NCBI GenBank assembly: GCA_937859745.1 | Contig: CALMAQ010000056.1 | Location: 1-35,544, forward strand | Direction of reading: 5' to 3' | Origin: an uncultured Verrucomicrobiota bacterium | Lineage (GTDB): Bacteria; Verrucomicrobiota; Verrucomicrobiia; Chthoniobacterales; SZAS-18 | DNA: 35,544 nucleotides | In this document: positions 3,545 through 26,459 of the stretch, piece after piece | Numbering within the stretch: position 1 is the first letter of the stretch | How the letters are laid out: every line of letters begins with the position of its first letter | Notes under the pieces: model-generated | What the model saw: the letters and a program-made list of their open reading frames with translations, nothing else | What the model was told of the DNA's origin: nothing | Database searches by the model: none | Program-made: the position numbers and the translations under genes

Positions 3545-4702
3545 TTAGAAACTGCGGCCAGACTGCAGCCGCGCCTTGATGGTGCGCGCTTTTTCGAACG
3601 CGGTGTCCAGTGCCGGGGCTAGCACGCAGAAGTGGCCCATCTTGCGGCCGGGCTTGGCTTCCTCCTTGCCGTAAAGGTGCAGCTTGGCCCAGGGCTCGTC
3701 GAGCACGGCGCGCCAGTCCGGCGCGGCACCTTCCGGCCAGAGATCTCCGAGCAGGTTGACCATCACGACCGGACACAGCAGGTCCGGCGCGCCCAGGGGC
3801 AGATCGCACACCGCACGGACATGCTGCTCGAACTGGCTGGTCAGGCTCGCGTCGAACGTCAGGTGGCCAGAATTGTGCGGACGCGGGGCCAGTTCGTTGA
3901 CGACCACCTCGCCACCGCGGGTCAGGAACATTTCCACGGCTAGCAGGCCGCGCACGTCCAGCGCCTCCGTGACGGCGCAGGCGAGTTCCCGCGCCCGCAT
4001 TTGCACTTCCGGCGGCAGCCGCGCCGGGCAGAGCGTCACGTCGAGGATGTGGTGGGTGTGGACGTTCTCAAAAACGGGGAAGGGCAGCAGCTGGCCCTGC
4101 CCATTGCGAGCGCAGATCACGGAAAGTTCCGCCACGAACTCCACCCAGGCCTCGACCACGCCCCGCCGGGGTTCCCCCCCTGACCACTCGCGCCAAGCCT
4201 GCGAGAGGTCGGCCCCGGGCTCGATCTTGAGTTGGCCCTTGCCGTCGTAGCCGCTCTCGGCGGTCTTGAGTACGCATGGCGTCCCCAATTCCGCGACAGC
4301 GGCGGCTAGTCCGGCGGCGTCTGTGACCACGCGAAAAGCGGCGTGCGGGAAACCGTGCCGGTGCAGGAAAAGTTTCTCGCGCTCGCGGTGCTGGCAGATT
4401 TCGAGCACGGCCCAGCCCGGATAAACCGGACAGCCCCGCCCGACGGTCTGCAGCGCGGCGACGGGAATGTTCTCGAACTCGTAGCTGGCCACATCGACCG
4501 AGCACGCGAACCGTTCCAGCCCGGCGGGATCGTCGTACGCCGCGCCGAAAACCTGGTCGCAGACGGGGGCGGCGGGGGCGTCGTCCCCGGCGGGATCGTA
4601 GATGCTGACGCGGTATCCCAGGCGGCGGGCCGCCAGCGCGGTCATGCGCGCGAGCTGGCCGCCGCCGAGGATGCCGAGGTGGGAGCCAGGAGCGAACATC
4701 AT
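3545..4702 (-). CDS. purK: N5-carboxyaminoimidazole ribonucleotide synthase
   Basis: PurK is an ATP-grasp enzyme of de novo purine synthesis that carboxylates AIR with ATP and bicarbonate; PurE then rearranges the product. The ATG at 4702 (one of two adjacent ATGs) gives 385 aa, the usual length. The N-terminus has the GILGGGQLARM nucleotide-binding loop. The middle has the ATP-grasp features CVLKTAESGYDGKGQ and the VEAWVEFVAELSVI strand, and the C-terminal half has the metal-binding stretch VVNELAPRPHNSGH. The longer track ORF needs a TTG start at 4738 and is unlikely. The gene is co-oriented with blh, 43 bp downstream of it, so blh readthrough into purK is possible. purE is not in the window. 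Confidence 0.95.
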   Translation of the reverse strand: MMFAPGSHLGILGGGQLARMTALAARRLGYRVSIYDPAGDDAPAAPVCDQVFGAAYDDPAGLERFACSVDVASYEFENIPVAALQTVGRGCPVYPGWAVLEICQHREREKLFLHRHGFPHAAFRVVTDAAGLAAAVAELGTPCVLKTAESGYDGKGQLKIEPGADLSQAWREWSGGEPRRGVVEAWVEFVAELSVICARNGQGQLLPFPVFENVHTHHILDVTLCPARLPPEVQMRARELACAVTEALDVRGLLAVEMFLTRGGEVVVNELAPRPHNSGHLTFDASLTSQFEQHVRAVCDLPLGAPDLLCPVVMVNLLGDLWPEGAAPDWRAVLDEPWAKLHLYGKEEAKPGRKMGHFCVLAPALDTAFEKARTIKARLQSGRSF

Positions 4703-4745
4703 GGCAGGACCATGCGCGATGATCCCGGCGGAACCCAAGCAAAAT

Positions 4746-5792
4746 TCAGGGCCGGGAAGGTTGCCTGGCGTCCAGCCAGCCGATGACCAGCGCGTGCGGC
4801 ACGGTCAGCGCGGAGAGCAGGATAAAATAGGCCGTGGTCCACCCGCCGCCATCCCGGGAAAGCGGCGGCCAGAGCCAGAGGATGAGCCCCAGTCCCAGCA
4901 GCGAAAGCAGGGTGAGCGGCAGTGTGCGTCGGTGGAAATCCAGGAGCGCTTGGCCGAGGGGCAGGCGCGGACCAGGATGCAGGAGCGACTCCACCCGCAG
5001 CAGATGCCGCCAGGCATGGAACGCCACCCAATAGCCGGTGAATCCGAGCAGGGGAGGGGTGAGCCAGAACAGGGCCGCCAGGAGGAAAGATTCCAGCGCG
5101 TGCCTGGCAAAACGACGCAGCCGCATGCTGCCGGGTTCCCTGGCGCACCGGCAGGATGCCCCCGCCAGACACCAGCCGAAGCCGAGGATCGCCAGCGGGA
5201 GCGCGAAGCGCAGCAGGCGGGGGACGGTCGCGTCCGCCGCGCCGTTGAGCGCCACGAACGGTTCCAGCAGCCGGGTGGCCTCGCCCGGATGGAAGGCCAG
5301 CGGCGCGCCGATGACCAGCAGGCCGCGCCCCCAGGCGAATAGCCACCAGGCGAGTCCGCGCAACGGGCGGCTGCCAGGGAGCAACACGGTGGCATCGGCG
5401 CTGCCGAAGTGCCAGACGGTCAGCACGAGGAAGCCCGCCAGCGCGAGTCCCGGCTGCCACCGCCAGAATGCGAGCGTCAACAGAGACGCCAGCACGTACC
5501 CGCCAAGCAGCAACGCCAGCGTCCCGCCCCGCCAACGTGCGCCCGCCGCCAGCCGCAGCACCCACCAGTCCGCCGAACCGTGGGGCAGCCCGCAGAGAAG
5601 GACGCTCGCTCCCAATGCCCACCGAGCCACGGTCTCCGAGGCCGTCGGACCGGCCAGACCACGCAGGGCGAGACAGGCCAGCGCGGCGCACCAGGGCAGC
5701 GCGTACCACGGCCACGCCCCCCGCCACCGGCCTGGTGACGTGGTCCACACGACCGCACGCGGAAAAAGGGGTTCTGCCGTTGCCTCGTTCAT
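4746..5792 (-). CDS. blh: Beta-carotene 15,15'-dioxygenase, Brp/Blh family
   Basis: This integral membrane iron oxygenase cleaves beta-carotene symmetrically into two retinal molecules. The true gene starts at the ATG at 5792 (348 aa); the 885-aa track ORF is an accidental upstream extension. About eight hydrophobic segments are visible. The family's metal-ligand histidines are present in order: LPHGSADWW (His71), VWHFGSAD (His128) and FHAWRH (His259 and His263), followed by a late conserved-looking PHALVIGWL. Many family members read WHSxRH where this one has FHAWRH, a mild variant. The gene is divergent from the rhodopsin gene with 66 bp between starts, so it would supply that protein's chromophore. 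No carotenoid biosynthesis gene lies in the window, so beta-carotene must be made elsewhere or acquired. Identification is firm from the motifs and the neighbour; activity is inferred. Confidence 0.9.
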   Translation of the reverse strand: MNEATAEPLFPRAVVWTTSPGRWRGAWPWYALPWCAALACLALRGLAGPTASETVARWALGASVLLCGLPHGSADWWVLRLAAGARWRGGTLALLLGGYVLASLLTLAFWRWQPGLALAGFLVLTVWHFGSADATVLLPGSRPLRGLAWWLFAWGRGLLVIGAPLAFHPGEATRLLEPFVALNGAADATVPRLLRFALPLAILGFGWCLAGASCRCAREPGSMRLRRFARHALESFLLAALFWLTPPLLGFTGYWVAFHAWRHLLRVESLLHPGPRLPLGQALLDFHRRTLPLTLLSLLGLGLILWLWPPLSRDGGGWTTAYFILLSALTVPHALVIGWLDARQPSRP

Positions 5793-5802
5793 CTGTCCAC
5801 TT

Positions 5803-5839
5803 CCCGGATGCGCTCCGGGGCGCGATGCGCTAGCATCGC
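5803..5839. promoter_or_regulatory. Paired hairpins and direct repeats in the blh/rhodopsin divergent promoter region
   Basis: The 66 bp between the blh and rhodopsin starts hold two dyads. One is CCCGG-7-CCGGG (5803-5807 and 5815-5819). The other is a perfect 7-bp dyad GCGATGC-GCTA-GCATCGC (5822-5839), followed by TGGTTTTCG. The octamer GATGCGCT occurs twice, at 5807-5814 and 5824-5831, offset by 17 bp. This fits an operator for shared control of both genes. The second dyad plus the T-rich tail could instead act in the rhodopsin leader RNA as an attenuator. The structure is seen; the function is inferred. Confidence 0.45.
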
Positions 5840-5858: not shown

Positions 5859-6707
5859 ATGCAATTCCCGCAATATTATCTGCCGACCGCACGCGATGTC
5901 GGCCTGTTGTCGATGACGACCGAACTGTTCCTGACGATTGCGCTGTTCAGCTTCCTGGCCGGAGCCGTCTTTTTCGTCGTCCGGGGCAACAGCATCCACC
6001 CGGCGCACCGGGTTTCGGGGACGCTCACGGCCGTCATCTGCCTGGTCGCGGGCATCGCGTACTGGTTTATCCGCACGTACTACCACGACATGATGCACGC
6101 CGTGGCCATCAACCACGACCCGGGTGCCCGGCGCGGCATCATCCACGACGCCTTCTTCGCCATCGGTCAGTACCGCTACATGGACTGGGCGGTGACGACG
6201 CCGCTGCTGCTGCTCAAGATGGTGCTCTCTTTGAAGGTCAAGCCGCGCGAAATCCTCGGCTGGATCGCGCTGCTGCTGGGAGCGGACTTCTGGATGGTGC
6301 TCGCGGGCAGCATCGGCGACCAGCAATTCAACCAGGCCGACGGGACGCTGCTCGTGGGGCGTCACCTGCTCTGGGGGACGTTGTCGACGTTGGGCTACCT
6401 GGTCATTCCGTACCTGTTGTTTTTCAAGCTCGGGCCGAAGTACGGCGGCCGGACGGACGACGAGAGCGGGCGGGCCTTCCGCATCATGGCGCTTTCGACG
6501 GTCACGACCTGGGGAGTATATCCGCTGGGCTACCTGGTGCCCGCGCTGTTTGCCCACGCGGACATGAACTGGGTGCATCTGGCGTACACCGTGGCGGACA
6601 TCGTCAACAAGCTCGGCGTCGGGGTGGTGGCCTACATGGCGGCGGCCGAGGAACTGGCGCGCCGCGTGCCGCCGGAAGCGGTGCAGTCGGCGCGGATCAC
6701 CGTGTGA
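5859..6707 (+). CDS. Microbial rhodopsin, proteorhodopsin/xanthorhodopsin superfamily, DTK motif
   Basis: This is a seven-helix, retinal-binding, presumably outward ion (proton) pump of 282 aa from the ATG at 5859; the track start 51 bases earlier adds a non-family leader and overlaps the control region. Helix C reads RYMDWAVTTPLLLLK, giving Asp109 (counter-ion/acceptor), Thr113 and Lys120 where proteorhodopsins have the Glu proton donor. Lys120 matches the arrangement known in Exiguobacterium ESR. Helix G has VADIVNK with Asp247 and the Schiff-base Lys251; helix F has TWGVYPLGY. Helix E has LLWGTLSTLG, with Gly173 at the xanthorhodopsin/Gloeobacter position that opens a carotenoid-antenna window. 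The residue before YWFIR in helix B is Ala67, where the acceptor's partner histidine is normally found. Leu117 at the tuning position suggests green absorption. The B-C loop is long and His-rich. blh lies divergently upstream. Confidence 0.95.
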   Translation: MQFPQYYLPTARDVGLLSMTTELFLTIALFSFLAGAVFFVVRGNSIHPAHRVSGTLTAVICLVAGIAYWFIRTYYHDMMHAVAINHDPGARRGIIHDAFFAIGQYRYMDWAVTTPLLLLKMVLSLKVKPREILGWIALLLGADFWMVLAGSIGDQQFNQADGTLLVGRHLLWGTLSTLGYLVIPYLLFFKLGPKYGGRTDDESGRAFRIMALSTVTTWGVYPLGYLVPALFAHADMNWVHLAYTVADIVNKLGVGVVAYMAAAEELARRVPPEAVQSARITV

Positions 6708-6845: not shown

Positions 6846-7238
6846 ATGGAAATCGCCATTCAACTCGCTCTGTTTCTGGAGAATCAGCCCGGTACGCTCG
6901 CGGCTGTCTGTGATGAACTGGCCGCGGCCAACATCAACATCCTGGCGCTTACCATTTCCGACACCGTGGACCACTCGGTCGTGCGCATAATCGTCAGCGA
7001 CACCGAGAAAGCGCTCGACATCTTCGAGGAGCACGGGACCCTCGTCGTCGAGAACGAGGTGCTCCTCACCCACATCGACAACCAGCCCGGCAGCCTTTCC
7101 AAGATCGCCCACGAACTCGCCGCCGCCGAGGTGAACATTGAGTACGCCTACCTCGCCACCGGCCAGGAAAGCCAGACCGGCCTCATGGTGTTGCGCGTCA
7201 GCGACGCCGAAAAGGCGCTGGCCGTGCTCAAGTCCTGA
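6846..7238 (+). CDS. Tandem ACT-domain protein, probable amino-acid-binding regulator
   Basis: The protein is 130 aa from the ATG at 6846; the track start 39 bases earlier adds a non-homologous leader. It consists of two ACT domains, about residues 3-68 and 70-130. Each opens with the characteristic strand-turn-helix seen in FLENQPGTLAAVCDELAAAN and again in HIDNQPGSLSKIAHELAAAE. There is no catalytic domain. ACT pairs bind amino acids at their interface and usually regulate a partner enzyme. Stand-alone double-ACT proteins are common in anaerobes and Verrucomicrobiota-like genomes, but their partners are mostly unknown. Neither neighbour (rhodopsin, glgX) suggests a ligand. It could be a free-standing regulator of an aspartate-family or branched-chain enzyme, but this cannot be decided here. 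Confidence 0.85.
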   Translation: MEIAIQLALFLENQPGTLAAVCDELAAANINILALTISDTVDHSVVRIIVSDTEKALDIFEEHGTLVVENEVLLTHIDNQPGSLSKIAHELAAAEVNIEYAYLATGQESQTGLMVLRVSDAEKALAVLKS

Positions 7239-7255
7239 GTTTTCCCCGGCTGTCG

Positions 7256-7272
7256 CCCGGCGCGGGATTTTT
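7256..7272 (+). terminator. Short GC hairpin with T-run after the ACT gene
   Basis: CCCG-GCG-CGGG (7256-7266) is followed immediately by ATTTTT, 18 bp after the ACT-protein stop. The position and T-run are right for an intrinsic terminator, but a 4-bp stem is weak. Confidence 0.3.
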
Positions 7273-7392
7273 GCGGCAAAGCCTACCGCCAGCGGTCGGG
7301 GACTCTGCGTAGTAGAACGGTGGCGCGCCACGCTCCGGCTTGGCCGCATCCACCGCATCATCTCCGTCGTAAACAAACTTCCTTTTACAAGT

Positions 7393-9549
7393 ATGCCGAT
7401 CAAAGTCTGGCCAGGACATCCTTACCCGCTCGGTGCCACGTGGAATGGCCAAGGGGTCAACTTTGCCGTGTTCAGCGAGGGGGCCACCGGGGTGGACATC
7501 TGCCTCTTCGATGGTGCCGACGCACCCACCGAAAGCGTGCGCGTGCGGATGACCGAGCAGACCGACCAGGTCTGGCACGTGTACCTGCCCGAGATCAAGC
7601 CCGGCCAGCACTACGGCTACCGCGTTTACGGCCCCTACGATCCCGCCAAGGGCCTGCGCTTCAACGCTTCCAAGCTGTTACTCGATCCCTATTCCAAGGC
7701 CATCAGCGGCGATATCCAATGGGGCACGGAGATGTACGCCTACGAGATGGGCGAAGAAGGCGACGCCGTGCGCGACTACCGCGACGACGCCAAGGGCATG
7801 CCCAAGAGCATCGTCATCGACAACTCTTTTGACTGGAGCGGCGACCAGTCGCCCCGCACGCCACTGCACCGCTCTATCATCTACGAGGCGCACGTGAAAG
7901 GCTTCTCCAAGCTCAACCCCGAAGTGCCCGAGGCCGAGCGGGGCACCTACGCGGGCATGGGCAACCCCGCTTCTGTCAAGTACCTGCAGGATTTGGGCGT
8001 CACTGCCGTCGAGCTGCTGCCCGTCCACCAGCACGTCGAGGATCAACACCTGGAAGAAAAAGGGCTCAAAAATTACTGGGGCTACAACACCATCAGCTAC
8101 TTCGCGCCCCACCACGCGTACGCCGCTGCGACTCCGGGGAACGATTGCGTGCGCGAGTTCAAGACGATGGTCAAGAACCTCCACGCCGCCGGGATCGAGG
8201 TCATCCTGGACGTGGTCTACAACCACACCGCCGAAGGCAATCACCTCGGACCGACGCTCTGCTTCAAAGGCATCGACAACAAGGCCTACTACTGGCTCAT
8301 GCCCGACGATCCGCGTTTCTACATGGACTTCACGGGCTGCGGCAACTCGCTCAACGTTCTGCACCCGACCGTGTTGCGGATGATCGTCGATTCGTTGCGC
8401 TACTGGGTGACGGAGATGCACGTGGATGGCTTCCGCTTCGACCTCGCGGCGACGCTGGTGCGCGGCGAGAGCGACATCAACAAGTATTCGGCCTTCCTGG
8501 CCATCATCCACCAGGACCCGGTGTTGAGCCAAGTCAAGCTGATCGCCGAACCCTGGGACATCGGCATGGGCGGCTACCTTGTGGGCAACTTTCCCGTGCT
8601 GTGGACGGAATGGAACGGACGCTACCGCGACACGGTCCGCAAGTTCCTCAAGGGGGACGACTCGCAGATCGGCGAGTTCGCCTACCGCATCAGCGGCTCC
8701 TCGGATCTGTACCAGACCAACGGCAAGCGCCCGTACGCGAGCATCAACTTCATCACCAGCCACGACGGTTTCTCGCTCAACGACCTCGTCAGCTACAACG
8801 AGAAGCACAACGAGGCCAACGGCGAGAACAACAACGACGGCGACAACAGCAATAATTCCTGGAACTGCGGCGCGGAAGGCCCGACCGACGACCCCAAGAT
8901 CAACGCCCTGCGCTCGCGCCAAAAGCGCAACTTCCTGGCCACGCTGCTGCTCAGCCAAGGCGTGCCGATGCTTCTGGGCGGCGACGAGTACGGCCGGACG
9001 CAGTACGGCAACAACAACGCTTACTGCCAGGACGACGAGATCTCGTGGCTGGGCTGGAACCGCGACAAGGCGGCGCAACAACTCCACTCTTTCACGCAGG
9101 GTATCATCAAGCTGAGGACGGACCATCCCGTGTTCCGTCGTCCGAAGTTCTTCCAGGGCCGCAAGATCCGCGGCCAGGACGTGAAGGACATCATGTGGTT
9201 CAACCCAGGCGGCACGGAGATGAACGACGACGAGTGGAACTCCGGCTTCGTCAAATGCATCGGCATGCTGCTCAGCGGCAAAACGATGGACGTCCGCGAC
9301 GACCACAACGAGCCTATCGTGGACGACACGTTCCTGATGCTCTTCAACGCCTCGCACCAGCCGCAGCGCTTTACGCTGCCGGGCCGGGTAGACGTGCACT
9401 GGGGTCTGGTCGTCGATACCGCCGAGGACACCGGCTTCGTGGAAACGACGCGGAACTACCAGGCGGGCCAGGCGCTCAAGCTGGCCGATCGTTCCGTGTG
9501 CCTGCTGCGCCTGGTGGAAGGCGAGGAAAGCTCGATCACCACGCGGTAG
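7393..9549 (+). CDS. glgX: Glycogen debranching enzyme (isoamylase type, GlgX/TreX)
   Basis: This GH13_11 enzyme hydrolyses alpha-1,6 branches of glycogen or limit dextrins to free linear maltodextrins. From the ATG at 7393 it has 718 aa, the normal family length; the track ORF runs 255 bases further upstream across the ACT gene and is spurious there. An N-terminal CBM48 domain (about 5-130) opens with WPGHPYPLGATW. The catalytic barrel carries DVVYNHTAEGN (about 273), DGFRFDLA with nucleophile Asp350, IAEPWD with acid/base Glu386, and SHDGFSL with Asp458. Its partners treZ and treY follow on the same strand, so its job is probably to feed the trehalose pathway, like TreX of archaeal and actinobacterial clusters. 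The gap to treZ is 160 bp, so treZ may have its own promoter. Confidence 0.95.
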   Translation: MPIKVWPGHPYPLGATWNGQGVNFAVFSEGATGVDICLFDGADAPTESVRVRMTEQTDQVWHVYLPEIKPGQHYGYRVYGPYDPAKGLRFNASKLLLDPYSKAISGDIQWGTEMYAYEMGEEGDAVRDYRDDAKGMPKSIVIDNSFDWSGDQSPRTPLHRSIIYEAHVKGFSKLNPEVPEAERGTYAGMGNPASVKYLQDLGVTAVELLPVHQHVEDQHLEEKGLKNYWGYNTISYFAPHHAYAAATPGNDCVREFKTMVKNLHAAGIEVILDVVYNHTAEGNHLGPTLCFKGIDNKAYYWLMPDDPRFYMDFTGCGNSLNVLHPTVLRMIVDSLRYWVTEMHVDGFRFDLAATLVRGESDINKYSAFLAIIHQDPVLSQVKLIAEPWDIGMGGYLVGNFPVLWTEWNGRYRDTVRKFLKGDDSQIGEFAYRISGSSDLYQTNGKRPYASINFITSHDGFSLNDLVSYNEKHNEANGENNNDGDNSNNSWNCGAEGPTDDPKINALRSRQKRNFLATLLLSQGVPMLLGGDEYGRTQYGNNNAYCQDDEISWLGWNRDKAAQQLHSFTQGIIKLRTDHPVFRRPKFFQGRKIRGQDVKDIMWFNPGGTEMNDDEWNSGFVKCIGMLLSGKTMDVRDDHNEPIVDDTFLMLFNASHQPQRFTLPGRVDVHWGLVVDTAEDTGFVETTRNYQAGQALKLADRSVCLLRLVEGEESSITTR

Positions 9550-9709
9550 GGCGTTTGTGCCGGATGGTGGCGGTTCAGCCGGTCGGCACTATCCTCCGGA
9601 TCGGTGTCGGCGGCACAATCTCGCACGCGCGTCACGTTAGGATTTTGCGAATTGTTCGCGTGCCGGTTTGCCACCTGGTGCAGGCTTCTGTTACTAAACC
9701 GATTCGACC

Positions 9710-11581
9710 ATGAAAAAATCGACGCCGCCCGGCGCTTTCCTCACCGACAAAGGGGTCCGCTACCGCGTGTGGGCCCCGGAGAAAAAGCGCGTGGACGTGG
9801 TCCTCTACCACGCCGCCTCGGGCGATATCCGGCGCACCCAGTTGCTCGAACCGGTGGGCGGCGGCTTCTTCGAGGGCACGGACGAATCCGGCGTCGCGGG
9901 CGACCTGTATAAATACCGGCTCGACAGCCACCCGGACCAGACGTTCCCCGACCCGCTCTCGCGCTTCCAGCCCAAGGGGGTGCATGGACCCTCGCAGGTC
10001 GTGGCCCAAGGCACCTACCAGTGGCGGCAGGAGGCGAACTACCGCCGGGTGGCCCTGGACGACCTTGTCATCTACGAATTGCATGTCGGCACGTTCACGC
10101 AGGAGGGCACATTCCTTTCCGCCATCCAGCAGCTCGACAGCCTCGTGGACCTGGGCGTCACGGCCATCGAACTGATGCCGCTGGCCGACTTTCCAGGCCG
10201 CTGGAACTGGGGCTACGACGGCGTTTACCTCTACGCCCCCGCGCGCGCCTACGGCCGCCCGGACGATTTGCGCGCCCTGGTGGACGCCGCGCACGGGCGT
10301 GGGCTCGCCGTCATCCTCGACGCCGTCTACAACCACCTGGGACCCGACGGCAACTACCTCGGCGCGTACACCAAGGATTACTTCAACCCCGCGCACAAGA
10401 CCCCCTGGGGCGACGCACTCAACTTCGATGGGCATCACAACGGGCCGGTCCGGGACTACTTCCTGAGCAATCCGGTGTACTGGATGGAAGAGTTCCACCT
10501 CGACGGCTTCCGGCTCGACGCCACGCACGCCATCATGGACGACAGCCCGCGCCACATCCTCGCGGAGATCGCCGGGGCCATCCACGCCCGGGGCGGTTTC
10601 GTGTACGCCGAGGACGAGCGCAACGCCGCCTCGCTCGCCACGCCTGAGGCCGAGGGCGGCTGCGGCTTGGACGGCATGTGGGCGGACGACTTCCACCACA
10701 GCGTCCGCGTCGCGCTGACGGGCGAGCGCGATTCCTACCTGGGCAACTTCCGCGGCTCCGCCGAGGAGATCGCCGAAACGCTCAGCAACGGCTGGTACTA
10801 CCGCGGCCAGCGCACGCTCCAGAGCGGTAAGCCGCGCGGCACGCCCGGCCGCCAGTTGCCGCCGCGCGCCTTTTGCTACTGCATCTCCAACCACGACCAG
10901 GTCGGCAACCGCGCCTTTGGCGAACGGCTCAACGTGCTCTGCGGCCCCGACGCCTACCGTGCCGCCAGCGCGCTGCTCTGCCTGTCGCCGCACGTTCCGC
11001 TCATCTTCCAGGGGCAGGAGTGGATGGCCTCGACGCCCTTCCTGTATTTCACCGATCACAACGAGGAACTCGGCCGGCTCGTCACGGAAGGGCGGCGCAA
11101 GGAGTTCGCGGGTTTTGCGGCGTTCGCCGACGAGGAAAGCGTCGCGCGCATCCCGGACCCGCAGGCGGAGAAGACCTTCTGTTCCTCCAAGCTCGTGTGG
11201 GACGAAATCCCCGAGGGCATGCACCACGTCACGCGCGACCTCTACAAGGAGGCGCTGCGGCTACGCCGGACCGAGCCCGCGCTGGGACCGCGCTTGCGCG
11301 ATGCCTGGCAGGTCAAGACGCTGGGCGAGCGTATTGTCGCGCTGAGCTGCGCGGACCACGACAGCGGCGAGAACTGCCTGGTGATGCTCAACCTGCGCGG
11401 CGGCGACGTGCATCCGACGCCCATCGGAGCGGTACCGCCCGTGGAACTGATTTTTTCGAGCAACGAGAAGCGTTTCGGTGGCAACGGGTATTCCGCCTAC
11501 AATGCCGCTGATCGCACCCTATGCTTCGACCGTGCGGAACTGCTCGTGCTGCGTTGGCGGGGTACGCCCCCCGCCGCCTGA
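9710..11581 (+). CDS. treZ: Malto-oligosyltrehalose trehalohydrolase
   Basis: TreZ (GH13_10) releases free trehalose from the maltooligosyltrehalose made by TreY. It has 623 aa from the ATG at 9710, near the family norm of about 580-620. The N-terminal beta domain opens with GVRYRVWAPEKKRVDVVLY (about 15-33). The barrel motifs are LDAVYNHLGPDGNY (about 204), DGFRLDATH with nucleophile Asp270, YAEDERN with acid/base Glu301, and NHDQVGNRAFGERL with Asp396. The last of these is diagnostic for TreZ against branching enzyme GlgB, the closest confusable relative. The gene precedes treY by 18 bp and is almost certainly cotranscribed with it. The product acts in the cytoplasm; trehalose would serve as compatible solute or stress protectant. 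Confidence 0.95.
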   Translation: MKKSTPPGAFLTDKGVRYRVWAPEKKRVDVVLYHAASGDIRRTQLLEPVGGGFFEGTDESGVAGDLYKYRLDSHPDQTFPDPLSRFQPKGVHGPSQVVAQGTYQWRQEANYRRVALDDLVIYELHVGTFTQEGTFLSAIQQLDSLVDLGVTAIELMPLADFPGRWNWGYDGVYLYAPARAYGRPDDLRALVDAAHGRGLAVILDAVYNHLGPDGNYLGAYTKDYFNPAHKTPWGDALNFDGHHNGPVRDYFLSNPVYWMEEFHLDGFRLDATHAIMDDSPRHILAEIAGAIHARGGFVYAEDERNAASLATPEAEGGCGLDGMWADDFHHSVRVALTGERDSYLGNFRGSAEEIAETLSNGWYYRGQRTLQSGKPRGTPGRQLPPRAFCYCISNHDQVGNRAFGERLNVLCGPDAYRAASALLCLSPHVPLIFQGQEWMASTPFLYFTDHNEELGRLVTEGRRKEFAGFAAFADEESVARIPDPQAEKTFCSSKLVWDEIPEGMHHVTRDLYKEALRLRRTEPALGPRLRDAWQVKTLGERIVALSCADHDSGENCLVMLNLRGGDVHPTPIGAVPPVELIFSSNEKRFGGNGYSAYNAADRTLCFDRAELLVLRWRGTPPAA

Positions 11582-11599
11582 CACGCCACCGCGTTTTTT

Positions 11600-14548
11600 A
11601 TGCCGTCCCCGTCCCTCGCCCAGCCGCGCATCCCCGTGGCGACCTACCGCGTGCAGATGCATGCGGGCTTCACCTTCAAGCAGGCCCGCGACACCATCGC
11701 CTACCTGCACGACCTGGGCGTCAGCGACCTGTACTCATCGCCCTTCTTCCAGGCCGCGCCGGGCAGCACGCACGGTTACGACGTGGTCGATCACAACCAC
11801 CTCAACGTGGAGATCGGCACGGAGGCGGAGTTCGACGCGCTGGTAGCCGAGATCCAGAAGCACGGCATGGGCCTGCTGGCCGACTTCGTGCCCAACCACA
11901 TGGGCATCGGCCAGACGACCAACGGCTGGTGGATGGACGTGCTCGAAAACGGACCGAGTTCGCTGACGGCGCGCTGTTTCGACATCAACTGGCACCCGCT
12001 CAAGCACGAACTGGACAACAAGGTGCTGCTGCCCATCCTGGGCGAGCAGTACGGCCGCGTGCTCGAAAAGGGCGAGCTGACCATTTCCTTCGAGGGCGGC
12101 ACGTTCTACCTGCACTACTACGACACGAAGCTGCCCATCAACCCGCGCACGTACAACCAGATCCTCCATTTCGCGGTCGATGCGCTCAAGGAAAAGCGGG
12201 AGCCCGGGGTGGAAGTCGTCGCCCCCATCAGGGTGAGCGCGCGGACGGGCGGCGACCTGTCCGTGTCCGAGTTGCAGAGCATCATGACGCAGCTCGAAAA
12301 GATGCCCCCGCGTACGACGACGGACCAGACGCTCATCGCCGAGCGCGCCCGCGAGAAGGAGGTGGCCAAGGTGCGGCTGGAACAGCTCTGCGCGGATTAT
12401 CCCGCGGTCGCCGAGGCCATCGACCAGGCGCTCATGCATTTCCAGGGCAACCCGGAGGACAAGCATTCCTACGACAATCTGGACCGGCTCGTCGAGGCGC
12501 AGGCCTACCGCCTGAGCTACTGGCGGGTGGCCGCCGAGGAGATCAACTACCGGCGATTCTTTGACATCAACCAGTTGGCGGCGATCCGGGTGGAACTGCC
12601 CGAGGTCTTCGACGCGACGCACCAACTCCTCTGGAAGCTGCTGGAGCGCGGCGCGGTCACGGGCTTGCGGATCGATCATCCGGACGGCCTCTACGACCCG
12701 CGCGGGTACTTCCGCGCGCTCCAGGAAAATTTCGCGCGCTTGCGCGGCGTCACGCTGCCCGAGGACGGCAAGGGCGTGTACCTGCTGGCCGAGAAAATCC
12801 TCTCTGGCGACGAGGAACTGCGCGAGGACTGGCCGATCCACGGCACGACAGGCTACGATTTCACGACGCATGTCACGCAGTTGCTCGTGGACGCGGGCGC
12901 GGGCAAGGCGTTCAGCGAAACCTACGAGAAGTTCATCGGCCGCTACGTCCATTTCGCCTCGCTCATCTACGAGAAGAAGCGGCTGACGATGCGCCTGTCG
13001 CTGGCCAACGACATCAACACGCTCGGCTTCATGCTCAACCGCCTGAGCGAGAGCAACCGGCGCTTCCGCGATTTCACGCTCAACGCGCTGACGGCGGCCG
13101 TGCGCGAGATCGTGGCGTGCTTCCCGGTCTACCGGACCTACCTCATTCCCGGCCAGCCTCCCAGCGCGGAGGACATCGCGGTGGTCAACCGCGCGACGGC
13201 CCTGGCTAAGCGGCTCAACCCGGGCACAGACGCCTCGGTCTTCGATTTCCTGCGCGACATCCTGCTGTTCCGCTTCCCGGCGGACATGGACCCGGCCCTG
13301 GTGGCGGAGCACGAGGCGTTCGTAATGAAGTTTCAGCAATGCACGGGGCCCATCATGGCCAAGGGGTTGGAGGACACGGCGTTCTACATCTACAACCGCC
13401 TCTCGGCGCTCAACGAGGTTGGCGGCGAGCCGCAGAGCTTCGGCATCGGCCCGGCCGAGTTCCACCACACGAACGAGCACAACCGCCGCCACTGGCCGCA
13501 CACGCTGCTGGCCACCTCCACGCACGACACCAAGCGCGCCGAGGATACCCGCGCGCGCATCGCTGCGCTCTCGGAGCTGCCGCAGGAGTGGCGGCGCGCC
13601 GTGCGCGCTTGGGGCAACGCCAACGCCAAGCACAAGACCCACATTGAGGGCGAGGGGGGTGCCGCGCCGGACGCGAACGAGGAGTATCTCCTCTACCAGG
13701 TGCTGCTCGGCACCTGGCCGGTCGAGGCCCAGGGGGATGGCACGGTGAAATCCGCTTTCGGCGCGATGAACCCGGAGGAGCACGCGGCCTACGTCGGGCG
13801 CATCCAGGATTACATGACCAAGGCCATCAAGGAGGCGAAGGTCAACAGCAGTTGGATTCAATCCAACGAACCGTGGGACGAGGCGGTGCGGAAGTTCGTC
13901 ACGGCGCTGCTGCGGCGTGGCAAGGGGGCGAACCCGTTCGTGCGCGCCTTCGAGCCGTTAGCGGAGCGCGTGGCGCAGATTGGATTGTGCAACTCGCTGA
14001 CCCAACTGGTCCTCAAGCTGACCGTGCCTGGCGTGCCGGACATCTACCAGGGGTGCGACCTGTGGGACTACAGCCTCGTCGATCCCGACAACCGCCGCCC
14101 GGTCGATTACGCGCTCCGCAGGAAGATGCTGGCCTCGCTCAAGGGGGCCGCGCCGCGTGAGCTGCTCGACCGCTGGACAGATGGCCGCATCAAGCTGTTT
14201 ATGACGCGCGCTCTGCTGCGCTACCGGGCGGACCACGCGGAGCTTTTTGCCCACGGGGACTACCGGGCGTTGAAGGTCACGGGCCGGTTCGCGGAGAACG
14301 CCGTGGCGTTCGCGCGCGAGCACGAGGGCAAAAGCGTGCTGGTGATCGTGCCGCGGCTGTCGTCGCACTTGGGCAAGTCGCCAACCGGCGAGGCCTGGCA
14401 GAACACCGAGGTCACCTTGGACGACGAGTATGCGGCCGGAAGCTGGCGGGAACTGTTCACGGGGCAGAAGATTACTTCGGGCACCTACGGGTTGCCTCTG
14501 GCGGAACTTTTCGCGGAGTTTCCGTGGGCGATCTTGACACGTAATTAG
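11600..14548 (+). CDS. treY: Maltooligosyl trehalose synthase
   Basis: TreY (GH13_26) converts the reducing-end alpha-1,4 bond of a maltodextrin into an alpha-1,1 bond. The protein is 982 aa. Motifs: [12 protein letters not shown] at the N-terminus, [12 protein letters not shown] (about 55), DFVPNHMG (about 95), [13 protein letters not shown] with the nucleophile Asp (about 354-366), LAEKIL with the acid/base Glu (about 397), and [15 protein letters not shown] (about 640). Characterised TreY proteins of about 720-780 aa are shorter. The extra length lies mainly in a helical insertion between the PNHMG and RIDHPDG motifs (about residues 180-340); long versions exist in other bacteria, so this is probably lineage-typical. 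It is coupled to treZ by an 18-bp gap. A GT26 glycosyltransferase gene follows after 22 bp, possibly on the same transcript. Confidence 0.95.
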
Positions 14549-14570: not shown

Positions 14571-15377
14571 ATGCCGCCCGCCTCGCCTGCCGCCCCCGCA
14601 CGTACCAACGTACTGGGGGTGGGCATCAGCGTCATCAACCAGACGACGGCGCGGGAGGTCCTCTTCGACGCGGCGCGGCGCGGCCGGCGCGGCTACGTCA
14701 CTGTGACCGGCGTGCACGGCGTCACCGAGGCGCAGAGTGACCCGGCGTTCCGGGCGATCCTCAACGGCTCGCTGCTCTGCACGCCGGACGGGATGCCGAT
14801 GGTGTGGATGGGCCGGTTCGCCGGGCAGCGCGCCATCGAACGGGTGTACGGACCTGACCTGATGCTCAACCTCTGCGAGCATTCGGTCGGGGAGGGGTTC
14901 ACCCACTTCTTTTACGGCGGCAACACGGGCGTGGCGGATGAACTCAAGCGCACGCTGGAGAACCGTTTTCCCGGGCTGCGCGTGGTCGGCACGTACTGCC
15001 CGCCGTTCCGGCCGCTCAACACCGACGAGCGGGAGGATCTGCAGACGGTCGTGGACGAGCTGCGTCCCGACTTCTTCTGGGTGGGCCTGAGCACGCCCAA
15101 GCAGGAAAAGTTCATGGCCGAATACCTCCCCATTCTGTGCGGGGCGAAGATTTTCCTGGGCGTCGGCGCGGCGTTCGACATGCACACCGGCCGGGTCCGG
15201 CAGGCCCCGCGCTGGATGCAGCGCAGCGGACTGGAATGGTTCTACCGGCTGACGCAGGAGCCGAAACGCCTCGCGCGGCGTTATCTGATCAACAACCCGT
15301 TGTTCATCGGCCGGGCGGCCTTGCAGTTGTCAGGCAAAAAGAAATACCCGCTCGATTGCTCATCCTCCGCCCGGTAG
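14571..15377 (+). CDS. WecG/TagA/CpsF family glycosyltransferase (GT26)
   Basis: This 268-aa GT26 enzyme belongs to the family that adds the second sugar (such as N-acetylmannosamine or its uronic acid, or glucose) to an undecaprenyl-linked acceptor in teichoic acid, ECA or exopolysaccharide assembly. Characteristic features are the N-terminal GVGISVINQTTAREVLF, VTGVHGVTEAQSD (about 44), LLCTPDGMPMVW (about 64), and the C-terminal pair GLSTPKQEKFMAEY and GVGAAFDMHTGRVRQAPRWM. It begins 22 bp after treY and ends 19 bp before a convergent acyltransferase gene. Functionally it fits the polysaccharide locus to its right and not the trehalose genes. Donor and acceptor cannot be read from sequence, and the initiating phosphoglycosyltransferase is not in the window. 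Confidence 0.9.
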   Translation: MPPASPAAPARTNVLGVGISVINQTTAREVLFDAARRGRRGYVTVTGVHGVTEAQSDPAFRAILNGSLLCTPDGMPMVWMGRFAGQRAIERVYGPDLMLNLCEHSVGEGFTHFFYGGNTGVADELKRTLENRFPGLRVVGTYCPPFRPLNTDEREDLQTVVDELRPDFFWVGLSTPKQEKFMAEYLPILCGAKIFLGVGAAFDMHTGRVRQAPRWMQRSGLEWFYRLTQEPKRLARRYLINNPLFIGRAALQLSGKKKYPLDCSSSAR

Positions 15378-15396
15378 GACTACAGGCTTGGAAGGT

Positions 15397-16431
15397 TCAT
15401 CGAGGCGTCTGGTTGGTCCGCGACCGGAGCGACTGGGTTCGCATGCTCGGCTCAATAAAGCGGAAGGTCAAGGTCAGCGCGATAGCCTCTGCCCAGCAGA
15501 ATAGGAAGTAACCCAGCCAAGCGGCCTTGGCCGCGCCTACATGGTGGTAGACGAACAGAATGGCGATCCCATGGAGCAGGAAGAACGGAAAAGAAGCTGT
15601 GCTCAGTAGCCGGATCAAATTCAAAGCTGGCTTCCTGGTAATTACCATCGCCACACTCGAAAGCGCTACAACCACCAGCGTGACCAACAATCCACGCCAG
15701 GGCAACGACAAGACGTAAATCGCGTCTGGACCAAAGCGGGGAGCCACGGCGGTCGCAAGTACGCACGAAACGAGTGAAAAGAGCAGGAGTGCGGCGTAGC
15801 CCGCTTTGAGGTTGCGCTGCTGGCAGATCGTTTGCCCGATGATCAATCCCAGGCAGGTTTCCGGCAGCCGGAAGAGAACACTCCAATTTCGGCAGATTTC
15901 CAGCGCTGACTGCGGCCGGTACAAGAACACTGCCGAGGTAGCAGCAAGCGAGAAGGCGAATGCCGCCAAGACGATCCAGGGTGCCGGGATGCGTTTAAGT
16001 AGGCCGACGAGGAACGGGAACAATAGATATGCCTGTAGGATAAAGGGGATGAACCACATCACCTTCGATAAAAAGCGGAAGCCGAAATACTGGCTCAGGC
16101 CGGCGCTGCTGAGGACGAGTTCCAAAAAGCTGAATGGGCGGCCCAAGGCCGAGGGATAGAAGAAACTGAGGAGGAAGATTACGACATTGATCACGACGAA
16201 CATCGGGAAGACAGCCTTGAATCTGCCGACCAAATACCGGTGGTAAGACGGCAAATCGTCTGGCTGGACGGAGGAAAAACAGGTGTACGCGACGCCAGAG
16301 ATCATGATGAAACAGGCCACCGCGTACTCCCCCCACTCTGAGAATCGGTAAGTGGTGACCAGCCCGACGTGGTAGTAAAAAATGGCCGATGCGCCGATGA
16401 TGCGCCCCAGGTTGGTGATCTTTGATAGCAT
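15397..16431 (-). CDS. Acyltransferase family 3 membrane protein
   Basis: This is a polytopic membrane protein of 344 aa from the ATG at 16431; the track start 105 bases upstream adds a polar non-family leader. About ten hydrophobic helices are visible. The N-terminal pattern (LGRIIGASAIFYYHVGLV, then YAVACFIMISGVAYT) and the late RLLSTASFPFFLLHGIAILFVYHH match acyltransferase-3/OafA-like enzymes that O-acetylate or otherwise acylate surface glycans. The early family histidine is represented by FYYHVG. The classical R-x10-H signature is less clear, so the exact acyl donor is uncertain. It converges on the GT26 gene (19-bp gap), diverges from the epimerase gene, and fits a glycan-decorating role in this locus. 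Confidence 0.75.
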   Translation of the reverse strand: MLSKITNLGRIIGASAIFYYHVGLVTTYRFSEWGEYAVACFIMISGVAYTCFSSVQPDDLPSYHRYLVGRFKAVFPMFVVINVVIFLLSFFYPSALGRPFSFLELVLSSAGLSQYFGFRFLSKVMWFIPFILQAYLLFPFLVGLLKRIPAPWIVLAAFAFSLAATSAVFLYRPQSALEICRNWSVLFRLPETCLGLIIGQTICQQRNLKAGYAALLLFSLVSCVLATAVAPRFGPDAIYVLSLPWRGLLVTLVVVALSSVAMVITRKPALNLIRLLSTASFPFFLLHGIAILFVYHHVGAAKAAWLGYFLFCWAEAIALTLTFRFIEPSMRTQSLRSRTNQTPR

Positions 16432-16660
16432 GGAAGAGGCCAAGTGTCCGGGCTCCCGGCTCCGAGGTGGGGATGAGCGATAGCGAAAAAGTGCAATGCA
16501 TGCAAGGCGCAGAAATCGCCCGCCCCGTCCTGCCACGCTCCATGAGGAGGTGACGAATTCGCCACCTTGTCCATTTGGTTTCGGCTTGCCGTGGCTCTAC
16601 AAGGTGCTAAAAACGATCCTTCACGGTTGAGAATAGGTCTTGGCGAGAGAACAATTTGAA

Positions 16661-17656
16661 ATGAAAGAAGCGAACATTGTGGTCTGTGGGGGCGGAGGAT
16701 TCATCGGCGGTCATCTGATCGCAGACTTACGCCGTCAGGGAGTGACCCGTCTGCGCGCGGTGGATTTCAAGCCGATCAGCGGATGGTACCAGCACTTCGA
16801 TGACGTGGAGAACCTGGTGCTCGACTTGCAGGATCGTCAGAACTGCGAGCAGGCCGTCAACGGCGCTGGCATGGTGTACAACCTCGCCAGCGACATGGGC
16901 GGCATGGGCTTCATCGAGAACAACAAGTGCCTGTGCATGCTCAGTGTGCTCATCAACACGCATCTGCTCATGGCATCGCACAAGGCAGGCGTGGAGAAGT
17001 ATTTCTTTTCCTCCTCGGCGTGCGTGTACGCCGCCGACAAGCAGACGGACCCGAACGTCACGGCACTCAAGGAAGCGGACGCCTACCCGGCCATGCCCGA
17101 GGACGGTTATGGCTGGGAAAAGCTCTACGGCGAGCGCCTGTGCCGCCACTATACCGAGGACTTCGGACTAATGACCTGCTCGGCCCGCTACCACAACGTC
17201 TACGGCCCGTTCGGCACGTACGACGGCGGGCGGGAGAAGGCCCCGGCGGCTGTCTGCCGCAAGGTGATCTCCGCCTTGATGAGCGGTCGCCACGAGATCG
17301 AAATCTGGGGTGACGGCACCCAGACGCGATCCTTCATGTACATCGACGACTGCCTCAAGGGCACGCAGATGATGATGGCGCGCAGCGTGCCCGGGCCGCT
17401 GAACGTGGGCAGCAGCGAATTGGTGACGATCAACCAACTCGTGGACATCGTCGAGGACATCGCCGGGGTGAAGCTCAAGCGCAGCTACAACCTCAAGGCC
17501 CCCAAGGGTGTCAACGGCCGCAACAGTGACAACACGCTCATCAAGCAGTTGATGGGCTGGGAACCGTCGATCTCGTTGCGCGTGGGCATGGAAAAGACCT
17601 ACCGCTGGGTCTACGACCAGATGCAGGCTCGGCAGCCTGCACTGGCGGGGGTGTAG
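16661..17656 (+). CDS. gme: GDP-mannose 3,5-epimerase-like enzyme
   Basis: This extended short-chain dehydrogenase/epimerase of 331 aa from the ATG at 16661 (a TTG 21 bases upstream is the track start) is expected to convert GDP-D-mannose to GDP-L-galactose or GDP-L-gulose. The Rossmann loop is VCGGGGFIGGHL. Residues typical of GME and not of general epimerases are all present: NLASDMGGMGFI (about 74), SSSACVY with Cys121, DGYGWEK with Tyr150 and Lys154, FGTYDGGREKAPAA with Lys193, GDGTQTRSFMYIDD, and GRNSDNTLIK. The similarity to plant GME is strong along the chain. A bacterial GME has been characterised from the verrucomicrobium Methylacidiphilum, so the enzyme is not unexpected in this phylum. 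Here it lies inside a glycan locus, suggesting an L-galactose-type sugar in the polymer. No mannose-1-phosphate guanylyltransferase is in the window. Confidence 0.88.
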   Translation: MKEANIVVCGGGGFIGGHLIADLRRQGVTRLRAVDFKPISGWYQHFDDVENLVLDLQDRQNCEQAVNGAGMVYNLASDMGGMGFIENNKCLCMLSVLINTHLLMASHKAGVEKYFFSSSACVYAADKQTDPNVTALKEADAYPAMPEDGYGWEKLYGERLCRHYTEDFGLMTCSARYHNVYGPFGTYDGGREKAPAAVCRKVISALMSGRHEIEIWGDGTQTRSFMYIDDCLKGTQMMMARSVPGPLNVGSSELVTINQLVDIVEDIAGVKLKRSYNLKAPKGVNGRNSDNTLIKQLMGWEPSISLRVGMEKTYRWVYDQMQARQPALAGV

Positions 17657-17663
17657 CGTGGCA

Positions 17664-17701
17664 GAACCACGTCCCCCTACCGTGTGGGTAGGGGCTGGTT
17701 C
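17664..17701. terminator. Strong stem-loop between convergent genes
   Basis: Inner stem CCCCTACC (17674-17681) / GGTAGGGG (17687-17694) with loop GTGTG, enclosed by an outer stem GAACCA (17664-17669) / TGGTTC (17696-17701). It starts 8 bp after the epimerase stop and contains the stop codon of the converging gene (TAG, 17677-17679 on the minus strand). A bidirectional terminator is the simplest reading, though no long T-run follows. Confidence 0.6.
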
Positions 17702-18429
17702 CACAAAGTTTTCACCGGGTGCAGCGTCCAGGCCCCATCGCGGCGGGCGTGCTCGATCTGGTCCACGAAATCGCCCAGACTGTTGATGTGGCGGTTTTGA
17801 TCGCCCCAATCACGCAGGCGATAACCGAGGTGATGGGCGGTCGTGGGTAGATACAGTTCCAGGTAGATCGGAAATGGCTCCGTCCGGGCCGCCGTGACGT
17901 CGAAGGCCCCCCGTTTCCAAAAGCTGCCGCTACCGAACATGGAAAGCACTACCCGCCGGTCGTGCCGTACGCTGAAGCTTTCCCAGTGTTTGAAGAAGCC
18001 GGGCAAAGCCGCGTGGTAGAGGTAGTGGGGCTGGCTGGTGCCGTCCACCCTTTGGAGTTGGAAGGCCAGGACATCGGCGCGTTCCTCTTCCAGGTAGGTG
18101 AGTTGCCGTTCGTTGAAGCCCGGTGTGACCGGCAGTTGGTCGTACTCGGCGAAATGGACGTGGGTGTAGTCCCGCCCCTCCAACCAGCGAGAAACCACGC
18201 GCCAAACCCCCGTGTAGCTTTGCCGCTCCCGAGGATGTTTGACCGTCCGCAGGCGTGGATCGTCCACCAGCGTTTTGTGTGGGTGATCAAGCTGGGCAAG
18301 CAGCTTCTCGTCCCCGTTGAAGACGATGAGCACGTTCTCCGGCGGACAGTAATCGCGCCACCAAGCGAGCATCCGGTCCATCTGCGCGACGGGTTGATGC
18401 GTCAGCAGGACATTAAGGACGCGGCTCAT
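17677..18429 (-). CDS. Unrecognised protein of the glycan locus, possibly GT-A-like
   Basis: This 250-aa soluble protein belongs to no family I can name with confidence. It opens LNVLLTHQPVAQMDRMLAWW, followed by ENVLIVFNGDEKLL, which resembles the first Rossmann-like strands of nucleotide-sugar transferases. A stretch THVHFAEYDQLPVTPGF (about 94-110) could stand in for the acidic DxD metal site. SMFGSGSFWKRGAFDVTA (about 168-185) resembles the acceptor-side glycine/aromatic segment of GT-A proteins. There is no signal peptide and no membrane segment. It is the last gene of a minus-strand block after two GT4 genes and a small ORF, whose end it overlaps by 17 bp, so a role in building the same glycan is likely. 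The glycosyltransferase reading is an inference from pattern and context only. Confidence 0.75.
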   Translation of the reverse strand: MSRVLNVLLTHQPVAQMDRMLAWWRDYCPPENVLIVFNGDEKLLAQLDHPHKTLVDDPRLRTVKHPRERQSYTGVWRVVSRWLEGRDYTHVHFAEYDQLPVTPGFNERQLTYLEEERADVLAFQLQRVDGTSQPHYLYHAALPGFFKHWESFSVRHDRRVVLSMFGSGSFWKRGAFDVTAARTEPFPIYLELYLPTTAHHLGYRLRDWGDQNRHINSLGDFVDQIEHARRDGAWTLHPVKTLWNQPLPTR

Positions 18430-18673
18430 GGGGGAAGTCGGGAGCAGGATGCGTCGTGAAGCCCATTTCCTGTTTCCAGTAGGTCAAGCGCTCTTGCGGC
18501 AGGAAAACAGGACGCACGGCAGCCTCTAAGCCAATCAGGTGAACCTTGCCGCGGAAGGACACGATCAGCGCGCGGCCGAGGACCCGGCCCGTCCGCTGGT
18601 CCACGACCGGCGAGCCCAATGCCCGGGCAGCACGGACTACCAGGGTACGTAGGACCATCTTGAATCGTTCCAT
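18413..18673 (-). CDS. Small unrecognised protein of the glycan locus
   Basis: This short basic protein is 86 aa from the ATG at 18673. Its core contains DQRTGRVLGRALIVSFRGKVHLIGL (two short beta-like stretches), followed by a proline-rich end. No family is recognised. It sits between a GT4 gene and the GT-A-like gene on the same strand and overlaps the next gene by 17 bp, so it looks like a real operon member. An alternative TTG start at 18712 would overlap the upstream GT4 stop as TTGA, the classic arrangement for translational coupling, and would make 99 aa with a more hydrophobic N-terminus (LFLLFSP). The sequence does not decide between the two. Confidence 0.55.
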   Translation of the reverse strand: MERFKMVLRTLVVRAARALGSPVVDQRTGRVLGRALIVSFRGKVHLIGLEAAVRPVFLPQERLTYWKQEMGFTTHPAPDFPHEPRP

Positions 18674-18708
18674 CGCAGGGGAGAAAAGAAGGAAGAGCGT
18701 GGCGGAAG

Positions 18709-19857
18709 TCAATGCCGATCACCGTTTGGTCCGCGCAGGCTGGCCACGATGGCATCAATCCGCTCGCCGGTCAGCTTGTCAAAGTCGAACCGCCGCACCC
18801 ATGTCATGCCGTTGGCGCGTAGGCGGGCGTGCAGGTCGTTGTCGGACGCCAGAGTTTCCAACGCCCTGGCCACGGCAGCCGCGTCCGTGTAGTCCACGAT
18901 CAGCGCGTTCCCGCCGGTCACCTCGTCCATGATCGGGAGGTGGTTGACCACGCATGGCGTGCCGCAGGCCATGGCCTCGGCCACGCAGCGGCCGAACGTT
19001 TCCTCACGGCTTGCCAGGCAAAATAGACGGGCGTGGCGGTACAACGGGGCGAGCCAGCGGTCATCGATCCAGCCCAGGAACCGCACGTCGTTTCTGATGC
19101 CCAGCGCCTCCGTGTGCGCGCGGGCAGCGTCCGCGCCGCCGTGCCAGCCGCCGCCGACCATCACCAATGGACGCGCCGCGCGCCAAGCCTCCGGCAGCCG
19201 CGCGTAGCCCGCCAGCAGCCGGTCGGCCTGTTTGTACTCGTAGAAGTTGCTGACCCAGAGCAGGTAGCCTGGTTCCACGCTGAACTCCGCGTGGAGTGCC
19301 GCCGCCTCGTGCGCCGGGGCATCCGGGGTGAACTGGTCGTGCTGCAAGCCCTCGTAAGAGACGACCGTTCGGGCGTGTGCCGCCGGGAACGCCTGGAGGA
19401 ACTGATTTTCGGCGAAGCGGGAGTTGACGATGATGATCTCGGCCAGGTCCACGCTGCGGTTGACGATCAGGCGGCGGTAAACTTGCCGCGCGAAGCCGAC
19501 GCGGTTCTTGCCGCTGAGGTGTTGCAGGGAAAACAGGTGCATCGCCACCGGGAGGGATTTTCTCACCGGCACGAAGCCAACGGTGAGCAGCGCCGCCGCG
19601 CCGAGCCGCCGGGCGGCGGCCGGCACGAGGAAGTGGTCGGACAGCAAGCGCCGGGCGAGCCGGTCGTTGGCCGGGTACCGGCGCACGGCCTGCACGCGCG
19701 GATCGTCGATCCGCCAGGCTTGGCCGGGACCGGCGAAGACGATCCAATCGATGTGTGGGTAGAGCGGCAGAGCATGCGAGATGAACTCGTGGAACAGGCT
19801 GGTCAAACCTGTCTTGCGAGTTGGGTTTTCGCAGAGAATGGAGAGAGCCAGCTTCAC
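18709..19857 (-). CDS. Glycosyltransferase family 4
   Basis: This 382-aa cytoplasmic GT-B enzyme is expected to transfer a nucleotide-activated sugar with retention of configuration onto a lipid-linked glycan. The N-terminal domain is typical (KLALSILCENPTRKTGLTSLF, then IIIVNSRFAENQF). The C-terminal Rossmann domain has LLWVSNFYEYKQADRLLAGY (about 218), VRFLGWIDDRWLAPLYRHA and the EX7E-type signature SREETFGRCVAEAMACGTP (about 303-321). The first codon in frame is GTG (19857). Downstream, the small ORF begins at or near this gene's stop; upstream, another GT4 gene ends 63 bp away, so the genes form a block. The specific sugar is not predictable from these motifs. Confidence 0.9.
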   Translation of the reverse strand: MKLALSILCENPTRKTGLTSLFHEFISHALPLYPHIDWIVFAGPGQAWRIDDPRVQAVRRYPANDRLARRLLSDHFLVPAAARRLGAAALLTVGFVPVRKSLPVAMHLFSLQHLSGKNRVGFARQVYRRLIVNRSVDLAEIIIVNSRFAENQFLQAFPAAHARTVVSYEGLQHDQFTPDAPAHEAAALHAEFSVEPGYLLWVSNFYEYKQADRLLAGYARLPEAWRAARPLVMVGGGWHGGADAARAHTEALGIRNDVRFLGWIDDRWLAPLYRHARLFCLASREETFGRCVAEAMACGTPCVVNHLPIMDEVTGGNALIVDYTDAAAVARALETLASDNDLHARLRANGMTWVRRFDFDKLTGERIDAIVASLRGPNGDRH

Positions 19858-19920
19858 GCGGGATGATCCGTTCGGAAAAGCAGCTTTCAGGGTGGGGGGA
19901 CCGCTGTAGACCGCGCGAAT

Positions 19921-21204: not shown

Positions 21205-21372
21205 GTGAAACGCAAAGCTCTGCCACTGTCAATACCAAGTGTCTTTCGAGGGCTCTGTCCCGGCCACGATGAAGCCTGATGTCCCGGCAAAAAAGATTCC
21301 GCCCCAGCACGACATCATGTAATTTGCGCCTTGGCTGCCGAAAAAGCCTCCCGGTATCTTCCGCACGGCGAG

Positions 21373-22413: not shown

Positions 22414-22547
22414 GCGCCCGCCATGCCCGCGGGACGCCCCGAAACTGAAGCCTTGCGTTCGCTTGACTCCGCGGCGGGCGACCGGCAAACTCCCCCGCGA
22501 GCGCCCCGAGGTGGGTGCCTGCTTTGTCTCGGCCCGTTTTTCTCGCT

Positions 22548-25255: not shown

Positions 25256-25412
25256 CCGCTCGTCTCACGGTTGGATCAGGCTTTTGCCGGTGCCGTGCGA
25301 AGCGGGCTGTTTCCTGGCGAACGGCGAGAGGCCTGCGGATGCACGTTTACTCTGGCTCCGGGGCCGCCGAGCGATTGGTCCGTCGGCGGATCGGGTCGCT
25401 GCCGCCAGACGT

Positions 25413-26366: not shown

Positions 26367-26459
26367 CGTCAGCGAAAGGCTCGAAGAAATCGACCGCACC
26401 GTAACGGCTCATCCGGGCACTGACAAGGAGGTTGTCCCGCTCGGTACCTGACCGCTTAG

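Follow-up and report, generated by a model that had tools for sequence, protein, structure and literature searches.

The stretch of DNA analysed here (35,544 nucleotides; the window) raises the question of how a rhodopsin might pump protons when it lacks the helix-B histidine that is normally paired with the proton acceptor Asp in such proteins. The rhodopsin gene (5859..6707, +) encodes 282 amino acids by translation and matches PF01036 (E 4.6e-30 across residues 21-263); with seven helices, this profile match and a retinal lysine in helix G, the product is a type 1 rhodopsin. An in-frame ATG at 5808 was rejected as the start because M1 at 5859 is invariant in the alignment of the clade described below. 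Comparison with a relative about 70-71% identical indicates purifying selection on the gene (NG86 dN 0.24, dS 0.81). By sequence, the best solved relatives in the PDB are xanthorhodopsin (XR, 89 bits), HeimdallR1 (9jtq, 87 bits) and Exiguobacterium sibiricum rhodopsin (ESR, 86 bits).

In a 102-row maximum-likelihood tree the window protein falls in a single clade of 35 distinct sequences (support 100/100, stem of 1.33 changes per column), a well-supported and little-described group of retinal proteins that bears out an earlier, sequence-only reading of this locus as a separate rhodopsin branch. Three members come from the window's verrucomicrobial genus and the remainder from Hymenobacter and other Cytophagales. 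The missing histidine, long B-C spacing and helix-E glycine recur in all 35 distinct sequences down to ~33% identity, and their combination is therefore more than chance. Scanning named genomes recovered relatives at ten Hymenobacter loci (identity 40-49%) and in a single Spirosoma MAG (36%), and searches of Hymenobacteraceae and Cytophagales added about twenty further relatives; in the window's own order the rhodopsin occurs in only three genomes of one genus, the other two encoding proteins 71% and 68% identical to that of the window. No further lineage emerged from 388 sampled genomes of the host phylum or from a 396-genome Bacteroidota sample, where the clade members found were those already obtained from the Cytophagales searches. 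The host is itself very likely a verrucomicrobium, since it encodes Verru_Chthon_A (598 bits), which 14 control genomes lack. Among viral contigs no relative was found, and plasmids carried only 28%-identical rhodopsins. One candidate member (L152, genome G1424) was excluded as XR-like. Within the clade the three verrucomicrobial proteins are separate from the Bacteroidota sequences, and the patchy distribution over the two groups suggests lateral transfer. The nearest reference is HeimdallR1, weakly (83/81) and across a long branch. A single group of all Lys-donor rhodopsins (ESR, HeimdallR1, two verrucomicrobial rows and the clade) is not rejected by the AU test (p 0.459), with weak tree support.

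The residues expected of a light-driven pump are in place. The codons for R106 to D109 (RYMD; 6174..6185, +) align with those of bacteriorhodopsin (BR) R82 and D85, making D109 the proton acceptor; T113 and T114 (6195..6200, +) align with BR T89 and T90, K120 (6216..6218, +) is the presumed lysine proton donor at the site of ESR K96 and BR D96, and the codons from D247 to K251 (6597..6611, +) span the second counterion and the retinal lysine. D109, T113, K120, D247 and K251 align with D94, T98, E105, D229 and K233 of Kin4B8. Translation and alignment both confirm the D109-T113-K120 set previously read in helix C. This is the D-T-K arrangement of ESR, in which lysine has been established experimentally as the proton donor (PMC8387761); it is neither the DTE with His75 of GPR-type proteins, as the window protein combines DTK with Ala67, nor the DTG/DTS of mirror proteorhodopsins such as SpaR, which form a separate clade (PMC10154332). 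D109 is kept in 30 of the 34 readable clade rows and K120 in 25 (otherwise Gln in five, His in two and Thr in two), with the complete DTK set in 25/34. D143 (6285..6287, +), equivalent to BR D115, co-varies with T114 in the clade alignment: the two co-occur in most clade members, as well as in ESR, HeimdallR1, BR and two further comparison sequences (L074 and L059), and in no other comparison row. Two Cytophagales members, L123 (1492-2283) and L127 (1501-2307), have Cys and Val, respectively, in place of the retinal lysine and also lack D109, and from their sequences Schiff-base retinal binding is probably absent; the clade therefore includes decayed or re-purposed proteins. Two Hymenobacteraceae members (L092 and L098) carry Ser109 and Thr120 instead of D109 and K120 and are likely not proton pumps. 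With D109, K120 or the retinal lysine lost in these four, function varies across the clade.

The helix-B histidine site (GPR H75, XR H62, ESR H57) is occupied by Ala67 (6057..6059, +), which shares an alignment column with the histidines of XR, Gloeobacter rhodopsin (GR), Kin4B8, ESR, GPR and HeimdallR1, with no gap from the helix-B arginine (R51+16). This gap-free spacing, together with the alignments, excludes Phe70 as the equivalent residue (GIAYW-F versus GIAFW-H in GPR). The window protein thus has no counterpart of the His-Asp acceptor complex formed by ESR H57, and the proposal of an acceptor without a helix-B histidine extends to the whole clade, in which position 67 is Ser in 32, Ala in two and Val in one of 35 members. 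The suggestion that a B-C-loop histidine substitutes as the acceptor's partner fails: H76 is His in 24/35 members and Arg, Lys or Gln in the remainder, H80, H86 and H96 are mostly lineage-specific, and in the model these histidines sit on helices that extend outward, not opposite D109. The clade's only invariant histidine (35/35) is H240 in helix G (6576..6578, +), seven residues before D247 and never the commonest residue in the comparison rows. Because H240 occupies the BR T205 site, in the extracellular half, it does not lie opposite D109; a histidine aligned there, the observation that the sequence-only reading had named as fatal to it, was sought and not found, H240 being outside the acceptor level. 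H240 is retained even in degenerate members, some without the retinal lysine, which may indicate that it serves structure rather than pumping.

Divergent from the rhodopsin lies a blh-type beta-carotene 15,15'-dioxygenase gene (4746..5792, -; PF15461, 165 bits), the two starts being 66 bp apart. An overlapping ORF at 4699-5748 (-) was rejected as blh, having no Pfam match. Genome G001 keeps the same divergent order, along with purK (PurK/ATP-grasp; 3545..4738, - in the window) as a conserved neighbour of blh, and ten Hymenobacter-group loci have the rhodopsin followed by a blh ORF in tandem. The blh/rhodopsin intergenic region contains a perfect 7-bp palindrome (GCGATGC-GCTA-GCATCGC, 5822-5839), a possible operator; terminator-like matches were at shuffle level. 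Downstream of the rhodopsin are an ACT-domain gene and three consecutive alpha-amylase-family genes (7138-14548) that resemble a TreX/GlgX-TreZ-TreY trehalose set, and genome G002 has ORFs of like size and order. A long polysaccharide cluster follows (14571-28672), with a WecG/TagA family gene, several glycosyltransferases, an epimerase, an acyltransferase and a Wzy-like O-antigen ligase.

We then consider the segment between helices B and C. By alignment, the distance from position 67 to 109 is 42 in the window protein, 34 in XR, 28 in ESR and 22 in GPR, the first three being exactly the values given earlier, and it is 41-43 in all 35 clade members. The extra length of the supposed long B-C loop is therefore sound, but 'loop' is probably a misnomer: residues 70-106 (6066..6176, +) are modelled by AlphaFold as outer helix B, a turn and outer helix C, a helical hairpin that replaces the B-C beta-hairpin. 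The model, built with 32 clade sequences, has a pLDDT of 90.9 and a pTM of 0.88 (helix B 48-84, helix C 88-123), with pLDDT of 93-96 in the hairpin, whereas the genome's XR-like paralogue, modelled in the same way as a control, has helix B ending at 69, followed by strands at 70-72 and 78-80 and by helix C from 88. On the extracellular side, the additional residues are predicted to add ~1.6 turns to helix B and ~4.4 turns to helix C. Family-averaged hydrophobicity has helical (90-100 degree) rather than strand periodicity in both arms, at permutation p values (0.06 and 0.14) that are weak alone. Searching the PDB with the model using Foldseek returned XR, Kin4B8, psXR, ESR and HeimdallR1 at TM about 0.7. 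With halves assigned by hand, conserved positions are enriched in the extracellular half (50 versus 24, Fisher p=0.0025), as are clade-specific positions (17 versus 6, p=0.047).

On these sequence features, we consider the window protein, a member of a distinct clade, likely to pump protons outward in response to light, with a lysine donor and a BR-like, histidine-free acceptor. This reading is favored because the retinal lysine, D109, T113, R106 and D247 align with those of proton pumps, because ESR and HeimdallR1 also have a lysine donor, and because blh adjoins the rhodopsin in the window, in G001 and in the ten Hymenobacter-group loci; the 100/100 clade, the helical hairpin (pLDDT >90) set against the control's beta-hairpin, the purifying selection and the T114-D143 pair make it the best account of the data. 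From the aligned residues we infer direction, ion and photocycle as follows. Light would isomerise the retinal bound to K251, and the Schiff-base proton would pass to D109 in a counterion site formed, as in BR, by D109, D247, R106 and Y68 without the helix-B histidine. The proton would then exit through an extracellular half that is lined by clade-specific residues, H240 among them, and lies under the extended B-C helix hairpin as a cap, while K120 would reprotonate from the cytoplasmic side in the manner of ESR. Retinal would be supplied by the divergently encoded Blh, and a carotenoid antenna may sit at Gly173.

Gly173 (6375..6377, +) aligns with the carotenoid fenestration glycine of XR (G156) and Kin4B8 (G153), at which an antenna window is established (PMC13093654). 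It sits in a WGTLST motif and is invariant in the clade (35/35), and the other Kin4B8 fenestration residues are largely kept (T177 in 30/35, Y225 in 35/35); the window protein itself has G173, T177 and Y225. Elsewhere in the genome, contig C360 carries CrtI next to genes for a polyprenyl synthase, an acyltransferase and a CruG-like glycosyltransferase, C227 has CrtD- and CruF-like genes, C22 encodes a CarR-type lycopene cyclase domain and C161 a CrtO-like ketolase; all but CrtI and the cyclase domain score below curated NCBIfam cut-offs and are therefore family-level calls. No clear CrtW or CrtZ was found in the genome, its two PF00487 matches resembling fatty-acid desaturases. Such a gene set could yield a monocyclic, glycosylated 4-keto carotenoid of the salinixanthin kind, and by gene content the host could make one, which renders an antenna on the window rhodopsin plausible. 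The claim of an antenna-type glycine thus gains from the invariance of Gly173 and the carotenoid genes, but the glycine is not diagnostic by itself because chloride pumps and histidine-free DTQ rhodopsins share it.

The fenestration residues and the carotenoid genes would also fit an XR-type dual-chromophore pump that has merely lost its histidine and in which the antenna carotenoid is the main feature, a reading that we regard as possible but somewhat unlikely. XR has a Glu donor and His62 where the window protein has K120 and Ala67, and the best tree sets the clade apart from XR, although the AU test does not formally reject a tree that joins the two (17 lnL units worse, p=0.094). The glycine is moreover common among rhodopsins without shown antennae, and a true XR-like paralogue in the same genome could take the carotenoid. 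That paralogue (L012, contig C204) is DTE with both His and the Gly window; the genome's third rhodopsin (L013, C35) combines DTQ with a Gly window and has Asn in place of the His. L013 belongs to a histidine-free group (with L030, L103, L104, L106 and L111) characterized by Asn at the His site, D-T-Q and the WG window, which spans Verrucomicrobiota and Hymenobacteraceae and constitutes another little-described branch.

Extending the preferred proton-pump reading, we tentatively raise the idea, which we judge unlikely, that the His-Asp complex was abandoned and its part in tuning the acceptor or releasing the proton was taken over by the extracellular cap, comprising invariant H240 near R106 and the helical B-C hairpin held by a QQ in the D-E loop and a conserved N-terminal segment. 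The conservation of the extracellular half could instead reflect a protein that is mainly a photosensor, whose helical cap in the periplasm serves in signalling or in docking a partner while proton transport is weak or incidental, and the loss of donor and acceptor in some members would agree with this. We find it improbable, given that 25/34 readable members keep the complete DTK, that the neighbor is blh rather than a transducer or kinase, and that ordered extracellular faces also occur in rhodopsin pumps. Least probable is that the hairpin is a prediction artefact standing for an ordinary long loop: the alignment of 32 sequences is shallow and solved relatives reach no more than about 90 bits, but local confidence is high, the control recovers the known beta-hairpin, and both arms show the helical periodicity, weak alone, noted above.

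If the role of the His-Asp pair has indeed moved to the cap, the proton-pump reading would gain a new extracellular architecture, combined with a lysine donor and a carotenoid window; to our knowledge, a helical B-C hairpin would be without precedent on the extracellular side of the rhodopsin fold. A clade without the helix-B histidine, with blh alongside at many loci, also offers a natural test of what that histidine is for, and these ideas are testable since cultivable Hymenobacter strains carry relatives. Kondo et al. reportedly studied, in 2024 (doi 10.1021/acs.biochem.4c00286, cited in PMC12227055), the proteorhodopsin of Hymenobacter nivis P3T, which our genome analysis suggests is probably a clade member. 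In the genome of H. nivis strain S9.2P, the single rhodopsin found by search (L007) lies in the clade, adjoins blh and is ~42% identical to the window protein, so a clade member has probably already been expressed (Kondo et al. 2024).

Among known systems, the Heimdallarchaeial HeimdallR1 (PDB 9jtq), deposited as a light-driven proton pump, shares with the window protein the DTK set, the helix-C TTP, a D143-type Asp and a WGT with the fenestration Gly. The residue combination is accordingly new only in part: DTK with a Gly window was already known in HeimdallR1, but this archaeal protein, 29% identical in the Foldseek alignment, keeps the helix-B His that the clade lacks and has a 67-109 distance of 30. 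As a second Gly-window lineage with a lysine donor, the clade suggests that these two features may go hand in hand. ESR (4hyj) has the same D-T-K set and T114-D143 pair but differs in His57, Tyr at the antenna position, a 67-109 distance of 28 and its separate clade. XR, Kin4B8 and GR share the Gly fenestration with T177 and Y225, whereas they have a Glu donor, the His and a beta-hairpin B-C loop and form a separate clade. BR, although remote in sequence and distinguished by an Asp donor, Trp at the antenna position and the E204 release site, likewise lacks the helix-B His and has a similar T90-D115 pair and the D85/D212/R82 set.
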